Notes under the pieces: model-generated | The model's input: the letters and a program-made list of their open reading frames with translations, nothing else | Databases searched by the model: none | Told to the model about the DNA's origin: nothing | Shown: piece by piece, positions 20,317 through 63,397 of the stretch | How positions within the stretch are numbered: the stretch's first letter is position 1 | Layout of the letters: every line of letters begins with the position of its first letter | Made by a program: the position numbers and the translations under genes | From: Desulfobacterales bacterium | GTDB taxonomy: Bacteria; Desulfobacterota; Desulfobacteria; Desulfobacterales; JAAELO01 | NCBI GenBank assembly: GCA_024226555.1 | Contig: JAAELO010000336.1 | Coordinates: forward strand, 1 to 64,000 | Direction of reading: 5' to 3' | Length of the DNA: 64,000 bases

Positions 20317-20396
20317 AAAACTTAAATCTGTAAAATTAAGGTTTAAATAATTATTTAACCTAAATTTTAATAGATTAAAACTGAAGAGGGAAAAAA

Positions 20397-20473
20397 TGGG
20401 GTGAGTGAAGGGGCTTGAACCCTCGGCCACCAGGATCACAACCTAGTGCTCTACCAACTGAGCTACACCCACC
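20397..20473 (-). tRNA. tRNA-His (GTG)
   Basis: Read on the minus strand this is a complete cloverleaf with the extra G(-1), acceptor stem GTGGGTG/CACTCAC (one G-U pair), loop TTGTGAT with anticodon GTG, TTCAA T-loop, C discriminator paired to G(-1) and encoded CCA. G(-1) is the hallmark of tRNA-His. Confidence 0.95.
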
Positions 20474-20536
20474 ATATTAAGAATCGAACCAAGGTTAATA
20501 TTTTACTGTTAGATTTTTGTAAAAGATTTTCAGTCT

Positions 20537-39945: not shown

Positions 39946-40179
39946 CTTATTCGGCCTTAAATCGTACCAGGCGGCTTAATTTTTATTAATATTTTGGTTA
40001 AAATCGCTTTAATGTCTTTAGGAGAAGGGCATTACAGTATTTATTTTTTTCAAACCAAATCCTTAATCGGCTTATTCGGGCTTAATCAGGCTCCAGCGGT
40101 AATCTTTAAATATGATTTGCATAATTCATTTAAAGTGTTTATTTTTATTAAAACTTTACAACAACAAATGAGGAAAAAA

Positions 40180-40956
40180 ATGAGTGTTTACGACGAATTT
40201 ATAAATAATATTTCTCCACAAGAATGGGAATACTTTGCTGAAGACGTTCTTGCTTATATAGGATTCATAATATTAGAAGGACCAGCATCTGGTCAAGATG
40301 GTGGGAAAGATCTAATAGTTCAAAAGGATAATGATATTTTCATTGTAAGTTGTAAACATTATAGTAAGGATATAGGAACATCTATTGAAAATAATATTGT
40401 TGATAGAATTATGGAACATAATGCAAATGGATTTATAGGATTCTATTCAACTTATATTACAGAATCTTTTAAAAATAGGCTTCAAGGAATTTCTCAACAA
40501 TACAAAATTATAACTTACAACAGAATGAATATTGCACAAATAATACCTGATTTAAGTAGCACTATAACTCAGAAATATGGTAGAAAACCATCCGGTAACT
40601 CTTATGTTTTAAATACTGATGAAGATGATTATCGGCCATTAAATTGTTTAAAATGTGGAAAAGACATTCTAATGCCAATTTTTATTCGTGAATCAATGGC
40701 AATGTTACATAAAGATGAAAATGATATTTACCATTATCTTTATGGATGTAAAGAATGTATTAATTCATTATCTGAAGAAGGTTGGGTTGAAATTTATCAA
40801 GCTCTACATTCTGAGCAATTAATTTCTTGGAACAATATGGTAGATGAAGATACAAAAGGAAAAAAAGTTTCAAATTCTTTTTATAGAAATAAAAGTGAAT
40901 TTGACAGCAAAATAGCTCAGAGAATGTTTCCAAGAAATATGGGAACTTGGATATAA
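40180..40956 (+). CDS. Mrr-like restriction endonuclease-fold protein
   Basis: The start at 40180 (MSVYDEF) has AGGAA 7 nt upstream; the frame extends further upstream but without a ribosome site. The 258-residue protein has an Mrr-type PD-(D/E)xK core: EWEYFAEDVLAYIGF, then GQDGGKDLIV and FIVSCKHYSKD. The usual Q-x-K third motif reads S-C-K here. A later pair, LNCLKCGKDI and YGCKECI, may bind zinc. Such proteins cut modified or foreign DNA. It is encoded against the late genes, 146 bp before an alarmone synthetase gene. Very AT-rich codon use suggests recent acquisition. Confidence 0.75.
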   Translation: MSVYDEFINNISPQEWEYFAEDVLAYIGFIILEGPASGQDGGKDLIVQKDNDIFIVSCKHYSKDIGTSIENNIVDRIMEHNANGFIGFYSTYITESFKNRLQGISQQYKIITYNRMNIAQIIPDLSSTITQKYGRKPSGNSYVLNTDEDDYRPLNCLKCGKDILMPIFIRESMAMLHKDENDIYHYLYGCKECINSLSEEGWVEIYQALHSEQLISWNNMVDEDTKGKKVSNSFYRNKSEFDSKIAQRMFPRNMGTWI

Positions 40957-41102: not shown

Positions 41103-42140
41103 ATGAGTGAGCACTTAAATTATGTAATAGAAAATCATCCTGAATATATTGAAAAATTTGATTTAAATTTTAATAATTATAAATCCTTATGTGAAGAAGT
41201 TGAATACATTCTTAACAAACAAATAAATGATAACGAAACACAAATATCAGCCATAACTTCTAGACCAAAATCAAAACCAAGTTTTTGTGAAAAAATTCGT
41301 AGGAAAAATTATGATGATCCTTTTAAGGAAATAACTGATTTTGCAGGTGTAAGGATTGTCTTTCTATATTCAAAAGATAGAAAAAAAATTGAAGAAATTA
41401 TTGAAGCTGAATTCGAAATTATTGATAAAGAAGACAAAATTTCTGGTAATAATATAGATAAATTTGGTTATGGAGCTTTACATTACTTAATAAAAATAAA
41501 AAATAATCATTCAGGTGCAAGGTATGATGAAATAAAAGATCTTGTATGTGAAATTCAAGTAAAAACAATACTACAGGATGCATGGTCTTTAGTCGCTCAC
41601 CACTTAAGTTATAAACAAGAATCTGATGTACCTCCACAACTTCGTCGAAAGTTAAATGCATTATCAGGTTTATTTGAAATAGCTGATGACCAGTTTGAAA
41701 ATATTAGAACTGCCCGAGTTGAGTACCATAGAACTATGAAGTTAGAAATTGAAAACAATCCTGAAATATCACTCGAAAAAGAAATAACGATCGATAATTT
41801 AATTGCTTACCTTGAATATAAATTTCCAGAAAGAAATAAAATAACAATGGATCATGCTGTTGGAATTTCAGAAATTCTCATCAATACTGGATATAATACT
41901 TTGAAAAAAGTTGATGATCTATTATCAAAAACAATAGATGCCATTTCTGCCTATGAAAAAAAATCCCCTCCTATAGATAAAAATGATGTTCATAATACTA
42001 CTTTTACACAAGGTGGAGTTCTTATCTATGCTCAATTATTTATAAATTTAAAAGCAAAAGAAATAGAAGGGAAATTAGAAGAAGACGGATTCATACTTAA
42101 TCAGAAAGAAATGGTTCGATATTTAGATTTAGTAAAATAA
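41103..42140 (+). CDS. RelA/SpoT-domain alarmone synthetase
   Basis: The 345-residue protein carries a (p)ppGpp synthetase domain (about residues 25-200): ITSRPKSKPSFCEKIRRKN, ITDFAGVRIVFLYSKD, KFGYGALHYLIKI and CEIQVKTILQDAWSLVAHHL. There is no HD hydrolase domain or TGS/ACT regulatory part; the C-terminal 140 residues are unassigned. Single-domain synthetases include growth-regulating enzymes and toxSAS/CapRel-type anti-phage toxins. Its place in prophage cargo next to an Mrr-like nuclease suggests a superinfection or abortive infection role (inference). It may be co-transcribed with the nuclease gene. Confidence 0.85.
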   Translation: MSEHLNYVIENHPEYIEKFDLNFNNYKSLCEEVEYILNKQINDNETQISAITSRPKSKPSFCEKIRRKNYDDPFKEITDFAGVRIVFLYSKDRKKIEEIIEAEFEIIDKEDKISGNNIDKFGYGALHYLIKIKNNHSGARYDEIKDLVCEIQVKTILQDAWSLVAHHLSYKQESDVPPQLRRKLNALSGLFEIADDQFENIRTARVEYHRTMKLEIENNPEISLEKEITIDNLIAYLEYKFPERNKITMDHAVGISEILINTGYNTLKKVDDLLSKTIDAISAYEKKSPPIDKNDVHNTTFTQGGVLIYAQLFINLKAKEIEGKLEEDGFILNQKEMVRYLDLVK

Positions 42141-46510: not shown

Positions 46511-48472
46511 TCACCCTCCCATAAATTTAGAACGTACCGTGTTTATCTTTTTCTTTGTAGATGCCTTTTTAATTCTTGGTTTTAAGAGGTTAACCCCACC
46601 ACCGGGCCATTCCCAGTCTGAGAGAGCTGCGTTCATGCACTCACAATCGAGGTAATGGTTATCTCTTTTGAGCTGAACCCACTCTTCAGCACCGTTTTTC
46701 TGAAGCTGTTTTTCCTCTGCAAGGATCTGCTTTGCATAATCATCGTCAACTTTCGAATGAAGGTAAGCTGCTATCCCCTCTTGTTTCACAGCGTTTCCCA
46801 GACGATCATAGACAATATCTTTAAATCTGTTTGTGTCCAGGAAGTACAGGCGAAACCCGTTTTTCAAGGGCTTGCCGCTTGGAGTTGATTTCAGCTCAGC
46901 CCCTCTTTTAACTTTCTTTTCCTGTGGTCTTGAAGCCCCTTTCATTCCCCAGATTCGGGGACCATTCCAGCCCTTAACCTTTTGAAGCCAAAGCAGTGTT
47001 GCTTCTGTCATGGATTGACCGGAATCATATCTACCACCACCTGTATCAACCCCTCCGCGCCAGATCGGAAGCATCTCTTTTGAATCCTGAACGGGATAAG
47101 CAGTATCAAAAAACAGGTTTTCCACATCTCCCCAGGTTCCAAGATCTCCATAATCTATCAACCAGGAGTGATAATTTGGAGCCCATGCCCTCACCAGATA
47201 CCAGAAACCTCTTTTCTGAACATCAACCGCAGCAGTGACTGCAACCGCTTCCTGTGGAATAGTTTGTGGTGGAAGAGGTGTTTTTGCTTTAAGAATAGTC
47301 ACATTGTCTGAGGTTACTATGATCTGTTTATAGGGCTTTGCTTCATAGTTGTTTGCGTAATCCTGCTTTTCTTCAGGTCCTCCGTTTTCCGCTTTGATGT
47401 ATCTTGCAACTGTTTCAGAGATGGGAACAAAGAAAGATATCCAGGAAGGAACATGAAAGCCGATTTTCTTTGGTTTGAAGCTCTTAAGATATGTAAAGAG
47501 TTCAATCTCTTTTCCCCGGGATCTCCATTCACCAGCCCGAACAGCTTTGTTTCTAACATCATCATTCCACGCACTTTCACAAAACCTGCATTCATAATGT
47601 GCCAGATATTCAGATTCAATCTTTCTATAGTCAGCCTTTAAACCGCCTTCCCATCTGCAATTATCAATTGACATGACCTGATAATCCTCACAAAAAGGAC
47701 ATTTAGCAAAGTAGTCAAAGATAACCTGAGCCTCAACAGTCAAAGCTTCCCAGATGAAGCCTGTTTCTGTTGTTGGTGTGGAAAGTTTTATTATTTTTGC
47801 TCTGTTACGTCTCTTAAAAGTTGTTGTTCTCTTTTCTCCCAGAGAGATTGTATCTGTCTCGTTCTTAGCTGCGGTCTGTGGATACTTGTCTGTTTCATCA
47901 AAAACAACATATCTGTACGCTGCGGATGCAAGAGAAGCGGGAGAATGAGCCCATGCAATATCAATATCCAGATGTTTCAGCCTGATTCCCAGATTGTTTT
48001 CATCGTTCACACTACCAGTGAGGTATTTTTTCAGGTTGGAACTTGCCTTAAACATGGGCAGAATTCTCGTTTTAAGCTGCTTTTTACCTGCATCCTTGTT
48101 TGGGTATACATAAAGTATGTTACCGGGTCCTCTGTCAGCCATACAACCCATTAAGCTGTGAAAATTTTCTGTGCCACCGGATTGAACACATTTGCAAAGG
48201 ATTGTGGTTTCAACTCCCGGAAAATCAGCAGCATCAATAATTCCGACCATGTACGGAGTGAACAGGTTTTTCATTGGTCCTGCAAGATCTGAACTATCTG
48301 GAAGAACCCTGTATTTTTCCTGCCAAACAGACGGACGAACCATCGTCTTCTTCCTCATCATCTTCTTTTCTGCTGAAGAAAAACTGAAAGTATGAACTGG
48401 TCCATTATCTAAAATGAGCTGAATGTAGCTCTTCGGCATCCACTTCGGAAATTTTTTAACATTAACTATCAT
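46511..48472 (-). CDS. Terminase large subunit, GpA family
   Basis: I start it at 48472 (MIVNVKKFPKW), with AGGAG upstream, overlapping terS by 11 nt; the frame extends to a GTG at 48490. The 653-residue protein has the GpA ATPase with the deviant Walker A of lambda type (KCVQSGGTE, lysine at the start of the loop), Walker B (YVVFDETDK) and a C-terminal nuclease (TAAVDVQKR and GGVDTGGG aspartates). It cuts and translocates the DNA into the head. Two zinc-like CPFC and CRFC motifs lie between the ATPase and nuclease parts. Confidence 0.94.
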   Translation of the reverse strand: MIVNVKKFPKWMPKSYIQLILDNGPVHTFSFSSAEKKMMRKKTMVRPSVWQEKYRVLPDSSDLAGPMKNLFTPYMVGIIDAADFPGVETTILCKCVQSGGTENFHSLMGCMADRGPGNILYVYPNKDAGKKQLKTRILPMFKASSNLKKYLTGSVNDENNLGIRLKHLDIDIAWAHSPASLASAAYRYVVFDETDKYPQTAAKNETDTISLGEKRTTTFKRRNRAKIIKLSTPTTETGFIWEALTVEAQVIFDYFAKCPFCEDYQVMSIDNCRWEGGLKADYRKIESEYLAHYECRFCESAWNDDVRNKAVRAGEWRSRGKEIELFTYLKSFKPKKIGFHVPSWISFFVPISETVARYIKAENGGPEEKQDYANNYEAKPYKQIIVTSDNVTILKAKTPLPPQTIPQEAVAVTAAVDVQKRGFWYLVRAWAPNYHSWLIDYGDLGTWGDVENLFFDTAYPVQDSKEMLPIWRGGVDTGGGRYDSGQSMTEATLLWLQKVKGWNGPRIWGMKGASRPQEKKVKRGAELKSTPSGKPLKNGFRLYFLDTNRFKDIVYDRLGNAVKQEGIAAYLHSKVDDDYAKQILAEEKQLQKNGAEEWVQLKRDNHYLDCECMNAALSDWEWPGGGVNLLKPRIKKASTKKKINTVRSKFMGG

Positions 48473-49019
48473 CTCTGTTATTCTCCTCACTGCAATTTAT
48501 TGTGTAGCTATCAACCCTTGTGAGATCATGAAGCAGATCTGTCCATTTTTCTTCAGCAAGATTCTTTGCTTCATTGACTTTGGTCATGTTCCCGGTAAGC
48601 AGGCTGCAAATATCCGGCATAATCTCTTCAACCATCTGCCTGAAGTTCAGATCCAGAACAACCAGAAGATTAACCTGGTTAAGATTTGACTCAGTAATTT
48701 TGATATATTTCTTTTGATCCTTCTCAAAATCAAACCTGAGCCTTTTGTTTTTGATCCTGAAGTTTTCAATCTCTAAAGTTCTTTTTTCTGCTTTGTCTTT
48801 GTCCACAGCTTCGGGATTTGATTCTTCAATTTTTTCAAGCTCAGCCCTGACAATATAAGCAAGCACTTCTGTTTCAGAAATGGGTTTGCCTTTTTTTACT
48901 TTAATCAAACCTTCAGCTTTGTCCTGGTACAATTTTGTTTTTTCAATCTTGTATCCGGCATTTTGCAGATGCCTGAGCACATCCATCAAAGTTTTGAATT
49001 TTTTTTCTGACTTTTCCAA
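48462..49019 (-). CDS. Terminase small subunit
   Basis: The 185-residue protein lies directly upstream of the large subunit, has an N-terminal winged helix-like region (LMDVLRHLQNAGYKIEKTKL, DKAEGLIKVKKGKP), and a long helical middle (ENFRIKNKRLRFDFEKDQKK) typical of Nu1-type small subunits. It recognises the packaging site. The gap to the next gene (49020-49152) contains no gene. Confidence 0.8.
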   Translation of the reverse strand: MEKSEKKFKTLMDVLRHLQNAGYKIEKTKLYQDKAEGLIKVKKGKPISETEVLAYIVRAELEKIEESNPEAVDKDKAEKRTLEIENFRIKNKRLRFDFEKDQKKYIKITESNLNQVNLLVVLDLNFRQMVEEIMPDICSLLTGNMTKVNEAKNLAEEKWTDLLHDLTRVDSYTINCSEENNRDDS

Positions 49020-54932: not shown

Positions 54933-55197
54933 TTTTTCTCCCATAAATTTTTAATTGTGTATTACACAAATTGTAATATAATTTAAATTTAAGAATAATA
55001 AAAGTATTTTTTAATAATTCGTAAAGATTTCCATAGCTTGTATTTGTCGCAAAAAATAATAGGGACGTTCTTTTCCTCTTCGCAGTGATCAATTTTGGGC
55101 GGTCATGTCTTTAAAATATGTTTGCTATTAAATGTATTTTTACATATTTTAGGACAGTCTATTATTCCTTTTGCAAACTCATAGAAAGTTGGTACCC

Positions 55198-55926
55198 ATG
55201 AAATTTAATAAAATCATTATCTCCATTTTTTGCCTGTTAATAACACCTGCTGCTCTTCAGGCTGGAGGGAACACAACTATTAGTTCTTTTTCTAAGGCTA
55301 AAAAGATACTTCAGAAGAAAGTTTATCACGACCATAGAGTAACGTTTTATTGTAAATGCCCATACCGAAAGAATAAGACCATTATTAAATCTAACAATTT
55401 TTCACCATCCACAAAGCATTTCAAGAGATCCCGTAGAGTAGAATGGGAACATGTTGTTCCTGCTCACAGCTTTGGTCAATCGTTTAAAGAATGGCGAAAG
55501 GGAGATCCTAAATGTGTGAATAGGAAAGGTAGATCCTTTAAAGGTAGAAAATGTGCAGAAAAAGTAAACATGAAATACCGATATATGCAGGCAGATCTCT
55601 ATAATCTCGTACCTGCAAATGGACAGGTCAATGCACTGAGATCTAATTATAGTTATGCGATTATTCCAGGTGAACAAAGGCAATTTGGTGCTTGTGATAT
55701 GGAAATTAGAAGTAGAAAAGCTGAGCCAATGCCAGAGATCAGGGGTGATATTGCCAGGATCTATTTTTATATGGATGATGCATATCCTGGTCGGGGTATC
55801 ATAAGCAGGAAAAACCGTAAAATGTTCAAAGCCTGGGATAAAGCAGATCCTATTGATGCATGGGAAAGAAAACGCGCAAAGAGGATAGAACGGATTCAAG
55901 GTAATGTGAACAGGTTTGTACACTGA
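55198..55926 (+). CDS. Secreted endonuclease I (EndA/Dns family)
   Basis: I start it at 55198 (MKFNKIIISIF), the natural signal peptide; the frame opens at 55171. After a signal peptide (cut near LQAGG), the 242-residue product has the endonuclease I core: EWEHVVPAHSFG with the catalytic histidine, QADLYNLVPANGQVNALRSN, and YFYMDDAYPG. The family cuts double-stranded DNA outside the cytoplasm. In a prophage it could digest rival DNA or help the host use DNA. It stands alone on the plus strand. Confidence 0.9.
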   Translation: MKFNKIIISIFCLLITPAALQAGGNTTISSFSKAKKILQKKVYHDHRVTFYCKCPYRKNKTIIKSNNFSPSTKHFKRSRRVEWEHVVPAHSFGQSFKEWRKGDPKCVNRKGRSFKGRKCAEKVNMKYRYMQADLYNLVPANGQVNALRSNYSYAIIPGEQRQFGACDMEIRSRKAEPMPEIRGDIARIYFYMDDAYPGRGIISRKNRKMFKAWDKADPIDAWERKRAKRIERIQGNVNRFVH

Positions 55927-59666: not shown

Positions 59667-61640
59667 CTAATCCAATGGTACAATTTTAAAATATTTTTCT
59701 CTTAGTTCAAACAATAAACCAGAATCAGTTTCAAGATATTTTAAAATTCTATTGTCAAAGTTATCTACTATTAAGTTTCCTATCAATTTAACTAATCCTT
59801 TCGAATTGTAATGTCTAATTCCAAGGTCATAATCTTTGTCATTTAAAATTTTCTCTAAAAGCAATTTTCTTTCATTAATAAGTTTTTCAATATCAAGTTT
59901 TTTTATAGTTTCATTGAATTCTTGTTTAAGACCATCTACAGTTCTTGATTTCTTTAATAGATTATTTTTAATAGTATTATTAATTTTTTGAGTAGCATAA
60001 TCTATAGCTTGATATTCAATATTTTTCTCAATACTGTTAAAAAAATGAACTTTTGCATTTTCGACTTTAATATCTTCACAACAAAATTGTTTTGCTCCTG
60101 CTTTAAGGACTCTTTCATCACACAAAAGGTTTTCAACCTCTTGAGTTTCTATGCAATATATTGAATTTTCAATCCATTTAGTTTTTTGATTATCTGAATG
60201 ATAGTCCCCATCTATAATTCCTATTGAAGTGTTTCCAAAAATTTCTTTAGATTTATTAAAAGCACGAGTATAATTTATAACCTCTATATGTCCACCGACT
60301 GGTTTAACGGTATAATTTGGAAACATCATAGAGTACAACTTATAATCAATACTTGATTTTTCTCCTTCACAAAATAGTATTTTTTTTCTACTTCCTAATA
60401 TTTCCATTAACAATTGTTCGGGGATTTCTTCATCATTCGGAAATAAAACAACATCCCAAATATCTGGTGGGGTGAACTTCTTATTCCAAAGTTTTGTTGC
60501 TTGTATTCTTGAAGAGGCAAAATCAAGGCTATGTGTTAGAAAGATAAACTTACAGTCTTCTCTTAATAATTCCAGTGTGTCCCAAAGTTTAGAAGCAATT
60601 CCAATATGGAGGTGATTTTCTGGTTCATCTACAATAATGTATGAATTTTCTTTGGCAAGTAATACATGAGATACATAATAGAAAATAGCTTTCTCACCAT
60701 CACTCAATCTTGGAAATTCATAATGTTCACCTCTTGGTGGATAAATATTTAAATTATAGTTTTCATACTTCATTTTTCTGTGAATAATAATTTCATTCCA
60801 ATATTTCATTGCCCTTTCTAACTTGGACTTTGGATAGTTTTTTCTTTTAACCTCTGAAGTATGATAATATTTTTCAACATGTTTATGATGATCTGCAACA
60901 AGACTTTTGATTAAGTTATTCAAATCTTCAGAATATTTATGTTGTGAGCCCCAATCTTTTCCTAATTTTTCATCTGCTTGAAATTCATGAACAGAATTGA
61001 GAGGAACTGAATCTATAAGAATATGATTTACTCTTTGAATGTTAAATATTTTTTGAGCTGATATGATAGAAACATTAGTTCCAAATATACTTTTTGTTCT
61101 TCTAGAAAAAGAACTTTTTCCAGAACCATTAGCCCCAATAATAACAACACTCTGTTCAATATCTTTTATACTATCAAAAGACTTAACATGATATAGTCTA
61201 TTTAGGGTGTTTTCTATAATTTTATTATTATTATATAGAATATCTTGAATGCTATTGATAAAATCATTTCTTGCATTGGTATTTTTATCTAAATAGATGT
61301 TTTCATTAATTCCGGATAGTCCATTAGAACATTTGATTAAAGAGTTTTCAATTGAAGTTAAAGAATTAATCGTAGTAAAGACTAAATTATAGTATTGGTG
61401 AGTCCATTTTTTTTGAAATTGATTTTTTATACCATTTATTTGCTCTATTAATTTTGGACAAAGAGATATTTCATTCTTTACTTTTTCAAATGCGTTATGA
61501 AAATTTTTTCCTAAAAATTTTGAAAGCAACTTTATTATTTTATTTTCATTGTTCAATACATCATTCATAACTACAGAGTATTGATCTATTATAGATATGC
61601 TTTGATCAGATTTTTCTTTTAGCAGATCTATTTCATTCAT
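59667..61640 (-). CDS. AAA ATPase-DUF4435 fusion (PARIS/OLD-like anti-phage candidate)
   Basis: The 657-residue protein has an ABC-type ATPase with a long coiled insertion: Walker A (VVIIGANGSGKSSF, about 172-185), ABC signature region (FPRLSDGEKAIFYY, about 307-320), Walker B (SYIIVDEPENHLHIG) and switch histidine (KFIFLTHSLDFAS). The C-terminal third carries a DUF4435/Toprim-like domain (ILFCEGEKSSIDYKLYSMMF, IGIIDGDYHSD, YCIETQEVENLLC). This is the domain set of the AriA and AriB proteins of the PARIS defence system in one chain, and also resembles OLD-type nucleases. Position just outside the immunity region and low GC content fit defence cargo. Activity is inference. Confidence 0.8.
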   Translation of the reverse strand: MNEIDLLKEKSDQSISIIDQYSVVMNDVLNNENKIIKLLSKFLGKNFHNAFEKVKNEISLCPKLIEQINGIKNQFQKKWTHQYYNLVFTTINSLTSIENSLIKCSNGLSGINENIYLDKNTNARNDFINSIQDILYNNNKIIENTLNRLYHVKSFDSIKDIEQSVVIIGANGSGKSSFSRRTKSIFGTNVSIISAQKIFNIQRVNHILIDSVPLNSVHEFQADEKLGKDWGSQHKYSEDLNNLIKSLVADHHKHVEKYYHTSEVKRKNYPKSKLERAMKYWNEIIIHRKMKYENYNLNIYPPRGEHYEFPRLSDGEKAIFYYVSHVLLAKENSYIIVDEPENHLHIGIASKLWDTLELLREDCKFIFLTHSLDFASSRIQATKLWNKKFTPPDIWDVVLFPNDEEIPEQLLMEILGSRKKILFCEGEKSSIDYKLYSMMFPNYTVKPVGGHIEVINYTRAFNKSKEIFGNTSIGIIDGDYHSDNQKTKWIENSIYCIETQEVENLLCDERVLKAGAKQFCCEDIKVENAKVHFFNSIEKNIEYQAIDYATQKINNTIKNNLLKKSRTVDGLKQEFNETIKKLDIEKLINERKLLLEKILNDKDYDLGIRHYNSKGLVKLIGNLIVDNFDNRILKYLETDSGLLFELREKYFKIVPLD

Positions 61641-61968: not shown

Positions 61969-62451
61969 CTACATTCCCTTGGCTTTCTTTTTAGCGGCTT
62001 TTTTTTCAGCATTCTTTTTTTCGTAGAGTTGGAAATCGAGGAATTCGTTAACTTTTTCAAGGCTTTTTGGATCTAACTTTTCAAGTTCAACCATTTTCAT
62101 ATTACATTCTTTGGCCAGTTTCTTTTGTTTGAATTTTTTAATAACTTCGGAATGTAATTTATCCTGGTGATCATCCAGGTCATTATTTTTTGATAATATT
62201 TCAGGCTCTTTTGCTGAAATATTGTTTTCCTTATTAAACAGTTCCTGCCCGAGAACAAGCATTTCAAGATATGTTTTCCCAAAATAAGCAGCAATAATTT
62301 CCATTTTCTCTTCAGAGAAACCTCTTTTACCCTTCAGAAAGGAATTAAAGTGTGGGCGTGAAATATTAAGAGCGTCAGCTATTACACTTTGCTTATTTTT
62401 TTTTGAAATATAACTCTCAACAGATTTTATAAATAAATCAGTACTTTTCAT
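61969..62451 (-). CDS. Phage repressor (XRE/CI-like, short)
   Basis: I start it at 62451 (MKSTDLFIKSVES), the second methionine after a short upstream extension; the longer frame (62475) is possible. The 160-residue protein has an N-terminal helix-turn-helix of about 15-58 residues (QSVIADALNISRPHFNSFLK, GKRGFSEEKMEIIAAYFGKT) followed by a lysine-rich helical tail with no peptidase domain, so it would not self-cleave as lambda CI does. It is divergent from the Cro-like gene, separated by an operator region, and marks the immunity region. Confidence 0.85.
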   Translation of the reverse strand: MKSTDLFIKSVESYISKKNKQSVIADALNISRPHFNSFLKGKRGFSEEKMEIIAAYFGKTYLEMLVLGQELFNKENNISAKEPEILSKNNDLDDHQDKLHSEVIKKFKQKKLAKECNMKMVELEKLDPKSLEKVNEFLDFQLYEKKNAEKKAAKKKAKGM

Positions 62452-62461
62452 AGTTTTATTA

Positions 62462-62545
62462 CCTATCATTGGCAATAATATTTTTCAATTTCCGACATAT
62501 GGCAACTTTATCCTTGACAATTATTTCCACATTATGGCAATTTTA
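62462..62545. promoter_or_regulatory. Immunity operator region with ATGGCAA-type repeats
   Basis: ATTGGCAAT (near 62468), ATATGGCAA (near 62498) and TTATGGCAA (near 62532) repeat a TTGCCAT/ATGGCAA half-site. TTGACA at 62514-62519 can serve as the -35 element of the rightward promoter. The repressor and Cro-like protein probably compete for these sites. Confidence 0.6.
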
Positions 62546-62565: not shown

Positions 62566-62829
62566 ATGAGATTACCAAACGGAACATTAGTAAAAATTCA
62601 TAAAATCACCGGTATTTCAACGCCAAACCTAAGTGAATACATTTCAAACAAAAGATTTCCAAGCCGTAACCGTGCAATCGTATTAGGTAATGCATGTGCA
62701 AAACTCGGTTTCAATGTTCCAAAAGAAACATGGATGTTTGGAACAACTGAAGAAATAAAATCAGCCTTAATAACTTGTAATCAAAAATCTGAAGACTCGA
62801 CAACGAAAAAACAAATGGAGATTTTTTGA
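62566..62829 (+). CDS. Cro-like helix-turn-helix protein
   Basis: The 87-residue protein has a helix-turn-helix pattern (LVKIHKITGISTPNLSEYIS, about 9-28) and AAAAAGGAGAA 6 nt before its ATG. As first gene of the rightward run opposite the repressor it fits a Cro-type regulator. It ends 1 bp before the next gene. Confidence 0.75.
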   Translation: MRLPNGTLVKIHKITGISTPNLSEYISNKRFPSRNRAIVLGNACAKLGFNVPKETWMFGTTEEIKSALITCNQKSEDSTTKKQMEIF

Positions 62830-62830
62830 T

Positions 62831-63397
62831 ATGTTAAAAGCCCCTGAACAAAAAGCCCCTGAACAAATTCCCAAAGAAGCGACTATATTAACAGCCGGAA
62901 TTGATATGTATAATGACAGGTTTCTTTTTGTAGTACGTGCTTGGTCAAAAGATAAAAGCTGGTTGATACAATACGGTTCCATTTCAACTTGGAAAGATCT
63001 TAAACGTTTTATATTCAATTTTCATTACCCAATTCAGGGAACTTCAAAAACAATGAAAATATCCAGAGCTGCTCTCAATACAACATATAGAACTGAGGAA
63101 GTTTATGATTGGCTTATTAATAATAGCAAAGGGATTGTATACGGAATTTGTTTGGCTTGCCAACCACAAAGGGAAAGAATCAAGTCAGTTTTTATTCATA
63201 AAATATATTCAAATCAAAGTCTTGAACTAAAATTTCTTGATCCTGGTTCTATCGAAGACCGTTCCCGGAAAGAAATCGGCGCAAGTCCTGATCATTTCAT
63301 TGGGTGTGAGGTATATGCAACAGCTTGTATTGAAAAATCCTGGTCTTCTACAAATAATTCGAACTTTTTAAAAAAGATAAAGAGTTTTTTGAAATGA
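62831..63397 (+). CDS. Early protein homologous to the terminase nuclease domain
   Basis: The 188-residue protein matches the first half of the GpA nuclease domain of this same phage (segment IPKEATILTAGIDMYNDRFLFVVRAWSKDKSWLIQYG, in part VVRAWSKDKSWLIQYGSIST; compare LVRAWAPNYHSWLIDYGDLGT), with identical layout: D in GID for D in AVD, STWKDL for GTWGDV, HYPIQ for AYPVQ. The second active-site aspartate (GGVDTG) is replaced (RAALNTT), so catalysis may be lost. The ATPase is absent. A short duplicated KAPEQ stretch marks its start. It is an early gene, far from the terminase, so it may act as a regulator, decoy or accessory protein. Confidence 0.75.
   Translation: MLKAPEQKAPEQIPKEATILTAGIDMYNDRFLFVVRAWSKDKSWLIQYGSISTWKDLKRFIFNFHYPIQGTSKTMKISRAALNTTYRTEEVYDWLINNSKGIVYGICLACQPQRERIKSVFIHKIYSNQSLELKFLDPGSIEDRSRKEIGASPDHFIGCEVYATACIEKSWSSTNNSNFLKKIKSFLK

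Follow-up and report, generated by a model that had tools for sequence, protein, structure and literature searches.

A stand-alone GpA-type terminase nuclease domain, predicted to be nuclease-dead, between cro-like and cII-like genes of a Desulfobacterales prophage

The gene and its prophage

The stretch of DNA analysed here (the window, 64,000 nucleotides) is part of contig C336 (69,686 bp), on which a 48-kb prophage lies in tRNA-His. This prophage carries both the gene under study, hereafter P1, and a full-length GpA terminase, together with a primase, ParA and ParB, and the late genes (Table 1). The ParA and ParB genes (L003 4784–6339; contig 64784–66339) belong to its early region and have relatives in Desulfoluna prophages of related layout. 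Near its right end, tRNA-His genes at contig 68721–68796 and 68924–68999 flank a tRNA-Arg (L003 8718–9003; contig 68718–69003); counting the one at 20397, the contig holds three tRNA-His copies.

Table 1. Coordinates of P1, its active-site codons and the prophage features discussed (window positions unless marked as contig)
Feature	Position	Strand	Basis or remark
P1, stand-alone GpA-type terminase nuclease domain, predicted nuclease-dead	62831..63397	+	188 aa; PF20454, alignment, AF2
Asp25, first catalytic Asp kept (GIDM)	codon 62903..62905	+	D in 189/189 rows
Asn83, replaces second catalytic Asp (LDTGGG to LNTT; following glycine loop deleted)	codon 63077..63079	+	alignment; D in 189/189 rows
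Glu142, replaces invariant Lys	codon 63254..63256	+	K in 189/189 rows
Gly158, replaces third catalytic Asp (NHLLDCE to DHFIGCE)	codon 63302..63304	+	D in 189/189 rows
Divergent HTH repressor gene	61969..62475	-	weak HTH_3 (0.0009); PHROG transcriptional regulator (8.5e-6)
Three TGGCAA copies (62470, 62500, 62535), likely operators	62470..62540	.	divergent promoter region between repressor and Cro-like gene
Small Cro-like gene, 87 aa	62566..62829	+	position; relatives have small HTH genes in the corresponding position; no Pfam match
CII-like regulator, 147 aa	63455..63898	+	other prophages have relatives in the corresponding position; closest relative's Phage_CP76 (CII) match weak, below cut-off
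Resident full-length GpA terminase large subunit, ATPase and nuclease	46511..48490	-	PF05876 171.7 bits; PF20454 142 bits
Nuclease part of resident GpA	46556..47296
Probable small terminase subunit, 185 aa	48462..49019	-	position; in L066 and L070, homologues immediately precede terL
Prophage left end, tRNA-His repeat	20394..20478	.	matching right copy outside the window, contig 68718–68800
Integrase, at the element's end	contig 67595–68662		outside the window

The P1 reading frame is unbroken, running from an ATG start through 188 open codons with neither stops nor frameshifts of the kind that mark a broken pseudogene, and its codon signature is gene-like in the annotated frame only. It sits between the Cro-like gene upstream and the CII-like gene downstream, which bears out the initial annotation's placement of the gene in an early region beside cro and cII; from this position we infer that P1 is expressed early. 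Its ATG lies 1 bp after the stop of the Cro-like gene and is preceded at a distance of 10 nt by a GGAG (62817–62820). The end of the Cro-like gene itself reads GGAG-ATT-TTT-TGA (62817–62829, + strand), a spacing like that of the prfB +1 frameshift site; a Cro–P1 fusion made by +1 frameshifting there is a weak proposal, as the window contains seven instances of this loose pattern.

In L063, L064, L065 and L070, the related prophages for which the early region was read, the cro-like gene is followed by the cII-like gene with nothing between them, and a search of related prophages' early regions for P1 remnants found none. The viral-contig scans returned no close relatives of the Cro-like or CII-like proteins, and in the phage collection nothing matched the CII-like protein.

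Homology, origin and active site

P1 scores 44.4 bits against the Pfam GpA_nuclease family PF20454, for which the cut-off is 22.5, and reaches 7e-16 against the terminase large subunit profile PHROG 15. Alignment with the resident GpA gives 33% identity over 131 aa with an E value, for this single pairwise comparison, of 6e-16; the homology to a terminase nuclease proposed from the first reading of the sequence is thus upheld. A short profile similar to the GpA nuclease region, PHROG 15657 (function not assigned, 230 positions), is matched only weakly by P1 (E 0.0016), compared with 1.5e-8 for the resident GpA. The ATPase motor domain (PF05876) is absent, again as first described, and P1 begins at the nuclease domain border. 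The similarity had been placed at residues 14–130; in the alignment with full-length terminases it extends further, residues 1–174 matching the complete nuclease domain, which is covered from shortly ahead of its first strand through to its end. Three in-frame internal deletions interrupt the match: one takes out the glycine loop that follows Asp2, another the NKPIPG turn, and the third some 48 aa in front of the last motif.

P1 had also been described as a homologue of the phage's own terminase, which is correct in the broad sense that both belong to the same Pfam nuclease family and lie in the same prophage, but its closest kin are found in another terminase clade. The best matches are the terminases of three Desulfoluna prophages (G146, G168 and G184), with 45–52% identity over the best stretches as against 38% for the resident GpA, which over the P1 columns is only 30% identical. 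In the tree, P1 stands beside the Desulfoluna rows with support (91/50) that is not firm and on a branch of 1.58 against a median of 0.31, whereas the resident GpA, its catalytic residues intact, falls in a different clade with support of 100/98; an AU test rejects the pairing of the two (p=0.0101). The identity of 30–38% and this test rule out a recent duplicate of the resident gene, and P1, highly diverged and with its frame intact, does not look like the merely recent, decaying copy that the initial annotation had allowed for. The Desulfoluna terminases share with P1 a nuclease domain with the same order of elements, but they are full-length proteins of about 640–690 aa with an ATPase and an intact D-D-D and K, whereas P1 has 188 aa and three deletions and reads N, G and E where they have the last two aspartates and the lysine. 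Since the Desulfoluna prophages have ParA, primase, CII-like and terminase genes in common with the P1 prophage, the donor was probably a related phage; some of the divergence of P1 may be older than its capture.

In an alignment of 189 terminase rows, from which the active-site columns were read, three aspartates and a lysine are invariant throughout, and P1 has Asp, Asn, Gly and Glu in their place. The initial annotation had noted the loss of the second active-site aspartate, and this stands; the third aspartate and the lysine are gone as well, leaving only the first. We assign these residues a catalytic role because they are invariant and because of what is generally known about terminase nucleases with an RNase H-like fold. 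Among the 14 columns conserved at 95% or more, P1 departs at nine (six changed, three deleted), where real terminases depart at no more than three. Since the invariant Asp, Asp and Lys are replaced and nine near-invariant columns are lost, P1, which lacks the full set of three catalytic aspartates and lysine of an active GpA endonuclease, cannot be expected, as judged from sequence, to cut DNA by the terminase mechanism. These features very probably reflect the capture and inactivation of a terminase nuclease domain.

Predicted fold, retention and decay

The AlphaFold2 model of P1 (pTM 0.81; mean pLDDT 83, exceeding 90 in most of the core blocks) predicts an RNase H-like core, and thus the fold of the GpA nuclease family, from an input alignment of related terminase domains that biases the model towards that fold; the nuclease part of the resident GpA is modelled with a pLDDT of 92.9. 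By VIA-align, the P1 model matches the terminase nucleases of G20c, SPP1, P74-26 and HCMV with Z scores of 8.0–8.9, and RuvC-like proteins tie with them. RuvC and the poxvirus resolvases, at Z about 9, have the RNase H-like core in common with P1, a likeness of fold only, with no sequence relation shown. Foldseek alone gave no match to P1 below 1e-3, and a sequence search of solved structures found none for P1 or GpA. Neither a helix-turn-helix nor any other added domain is present in P1, which is basic (pI 9.4), with a net charge of +9 that lies at the high end of the values for related nuclease domains, whose mean is +0.7.

We consider it probable that P1 has been kept for a function. In neutral simulations on the P1 DNA, 33% amino-acid divergence brings about 4.9 stops, with a probability of 0.0035 that none arises, and divergence of 40–53% brings six to eight. 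The near-invariant columns lost in P1 must have changed after terminase function ended, and their share is of the order of the simulated divergence. Neutral decay is disfavoured because the frame has stayed open despite the loss of these near-invariant residues. Further, P1 keeps 29 of the 45 columns conserved at 80% or more, those of the active site being mostly lost, so that fold positions are better kept than active-site positions (Fisher p 0.0016, for an active-site set picked after the alignment had been viewed).

P1 is a singleton, and selection is read from its open frame, not from dN/dS. No second stand-alone copy was found in its own genome; in 146 relatives, 389 genomes of the order, 395 of the phylum and 340 of the class (overlapping sets, about 1,000 in all); among the best 80 loci of each scan of viral and genome contigs; or in the phage or plasmid collections. 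Close-relative scans with P1 in viral contigs and genome contigs gave no matches, and our searches of the open-access literature yielded no description of a dead terminase nuclease that stands alone. Other short GpA-nuclease frames were checked as possible sisters, and most are terminases cut by contig ends. Four from the contig collections proved to be split terminases whose ATPase half is encoded in a frame that overlaps, and the frames from the order are either truncated at contig ends or relics in which the frame is broken or degenerate. For two frames of 333 and 347 aa (L041 and L042), which keep the catalytic aspartates, the ATPase half was not found.

Of the explanations that compete with retention for a role in packaging, the one that survives best is that P1 is a passenger, the scar of an illegitimate recombination, open and translated by chance, functionless and decaying. 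The singleton status of P1 agrees with this, as do its active-site substitutions and deletions, which are what relaxed constraint gives; moreover, the same order does contain relics in the form of terminase fragments or split terminases, and in some of these the deletions are in frame. However, a gene that had lost nine of 14 near-invariant columns would be expected to hold several stops, and P1 holds none; its fold positions have outlasted those of the active site; and its start codon and GGAG lie exactly behind cro. The relics checked in the order are also mostly the reverse of P1, with catalytic residues kept and frames broken. We therefore regard a passenger as rather unlikely. A relic of a terminase nuclease domain that does have an in-frame deletion, with its catalytic residues intact, lies at L236 3462–4103, in a second locus of G122.

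Possible action on packaging

Our preferred reading, which we put forward tentatively and hold at somewhat less than an even chance, is that P1, a captured and nuclease-dead domain, has been retained to compete for terminase or DNA in early lytic growth without cutting. The whole nuclease domain of a related phage's terminase, without its ATPase, would have entered a lambda-like switch between the cro and cII genes, after which two of the three aspartates, a lysine and three loops would have been lost and the open frame and RNase H-like core retained. Once the repressor releases the operon, P1 would be made together with Cro in early lytic growth. It could then bind the targets of a terminase nuclease, either cos or other phage DNA, or the nuclease or ATPase domain of another terminase. 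By occupying cos or pairing with an active nuclease, the dead domain could block cutting. Packaging would thus be poisoned or delayed, either in a rival of the donor type, whether co-induced or co-infecting, or in the phage itself as a timing control. Taking these two targets together, we regard an action on packaging as close to an even call.

Two features would narrow this action. In lambda gpA, the N-terminus binds TerS, the small subunit, and the C-terminus binds the portal. Because the regions known from lambda gpA to bind these partners are absent from P1, its contacts are limited to DNA and to nuclease–nuclease or nuclease–ATPase faces. Further, the operon that contains P1 is apparently under repressor control, so that the gene should be silent in the lysogen and expressed early in lytic growth, which argues against ordinary superinfection immunity; a role during induction, directed against co-induced or co-infecting phages or at timing, fits better than the classic form of such immunity.

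A distinctly less likely possibility is that P1 is a repurposed regulator, its RNase H-like domain acting within the switch as a DNA- or Cro-binding partner without any link to packaging. Its location between two regulators, with 1 bp separating its start from the cro stop in an arrangement that resembles translational coupling, would suit such a role, as would its basic character and the predicted survival of the fold after the loss of catalysis; but relatives run the same switch without P1, and the protein has no DNA-binding helix-turn-helix or added domain. That P1 is solely a self-directed timer, delaying the phage's terminase early in lytic growth to keep replicating DNA from premature cutting at cos and having no part against rivals, appears improbable: its early position, opposite to the late packaging genes, and the GpA of the same superfamily in the same prophage speak for it, but P1 comes from another terminase clade than that GpA and related phages need no such gene.

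The boldest form of the competitor reading, in which P1 is a dominant-negative terminase inhibitor, a rival's packaging nuclease turned into a weapon or control element expressed from the early switch operon, we hold to be unlikely. If true, P1 would be comparable in logic to the host restriction factors derived from viral proteins, and pieces of one phage's motor could become another phage's factor. To our knowledge, the phage packaging inhibitors described so far mostly act via the small terminase subunit or the capsid, so that a large-subunit nuclease domain stripped of catalysis in an early switch operon would, if confirmed, be a new way of packaging control by a phage. The question can be tested directly with one small gene.

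Blocking of packaging through a terminase-binding protein has a precedent in Rpp of the PICIs (PMC6739421). If the competitor reading holds, P1 would resemble Rpp of Gram-negative PICIs and Ppi of SaPIs, which are small proteins of mobile elements that block the phage terminase complex (PMC6739421). Rpp, however, is a satellite protein whose target is the small terminase subunit, whereas P1 originates from the nuclease of a large subunit and is carried by a full phage; the likeness of P1 to Rpp and Ppi is one of proposed action only.

The prophage carries other likely conflict genes, which fit a phage engaged in competition and prove nothing for P1. Adjoining the prophage repressor, a gene at 59667–61640 (- strand) encodes a 657-aa AAA and DUF4435 protein that scores 371 bits against the fused AriAB (PARIS) model and is likely, by its sequence, to be a PARIS-like defence factor made up of one protein and carried by the prophage. 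Between portal and terminase in the late region, on the opposite strand, a gene at 41103–42140 (+ strand) encodes a 345-aa protein with a RelA_SpoT domain (PF04607, 70 bits), a PADLOC PDC-S33 candidate; it adjoins a gene at 39994–40956 (+ strand) for a 320-aa protein with an Mrr_cat restriction endonuclease domain. An Endonuclease I family protein (PF04231) is encoded at 55171–55926 (+ strand), among the non-phage-like genes at 53–59 kb inside the prophage.
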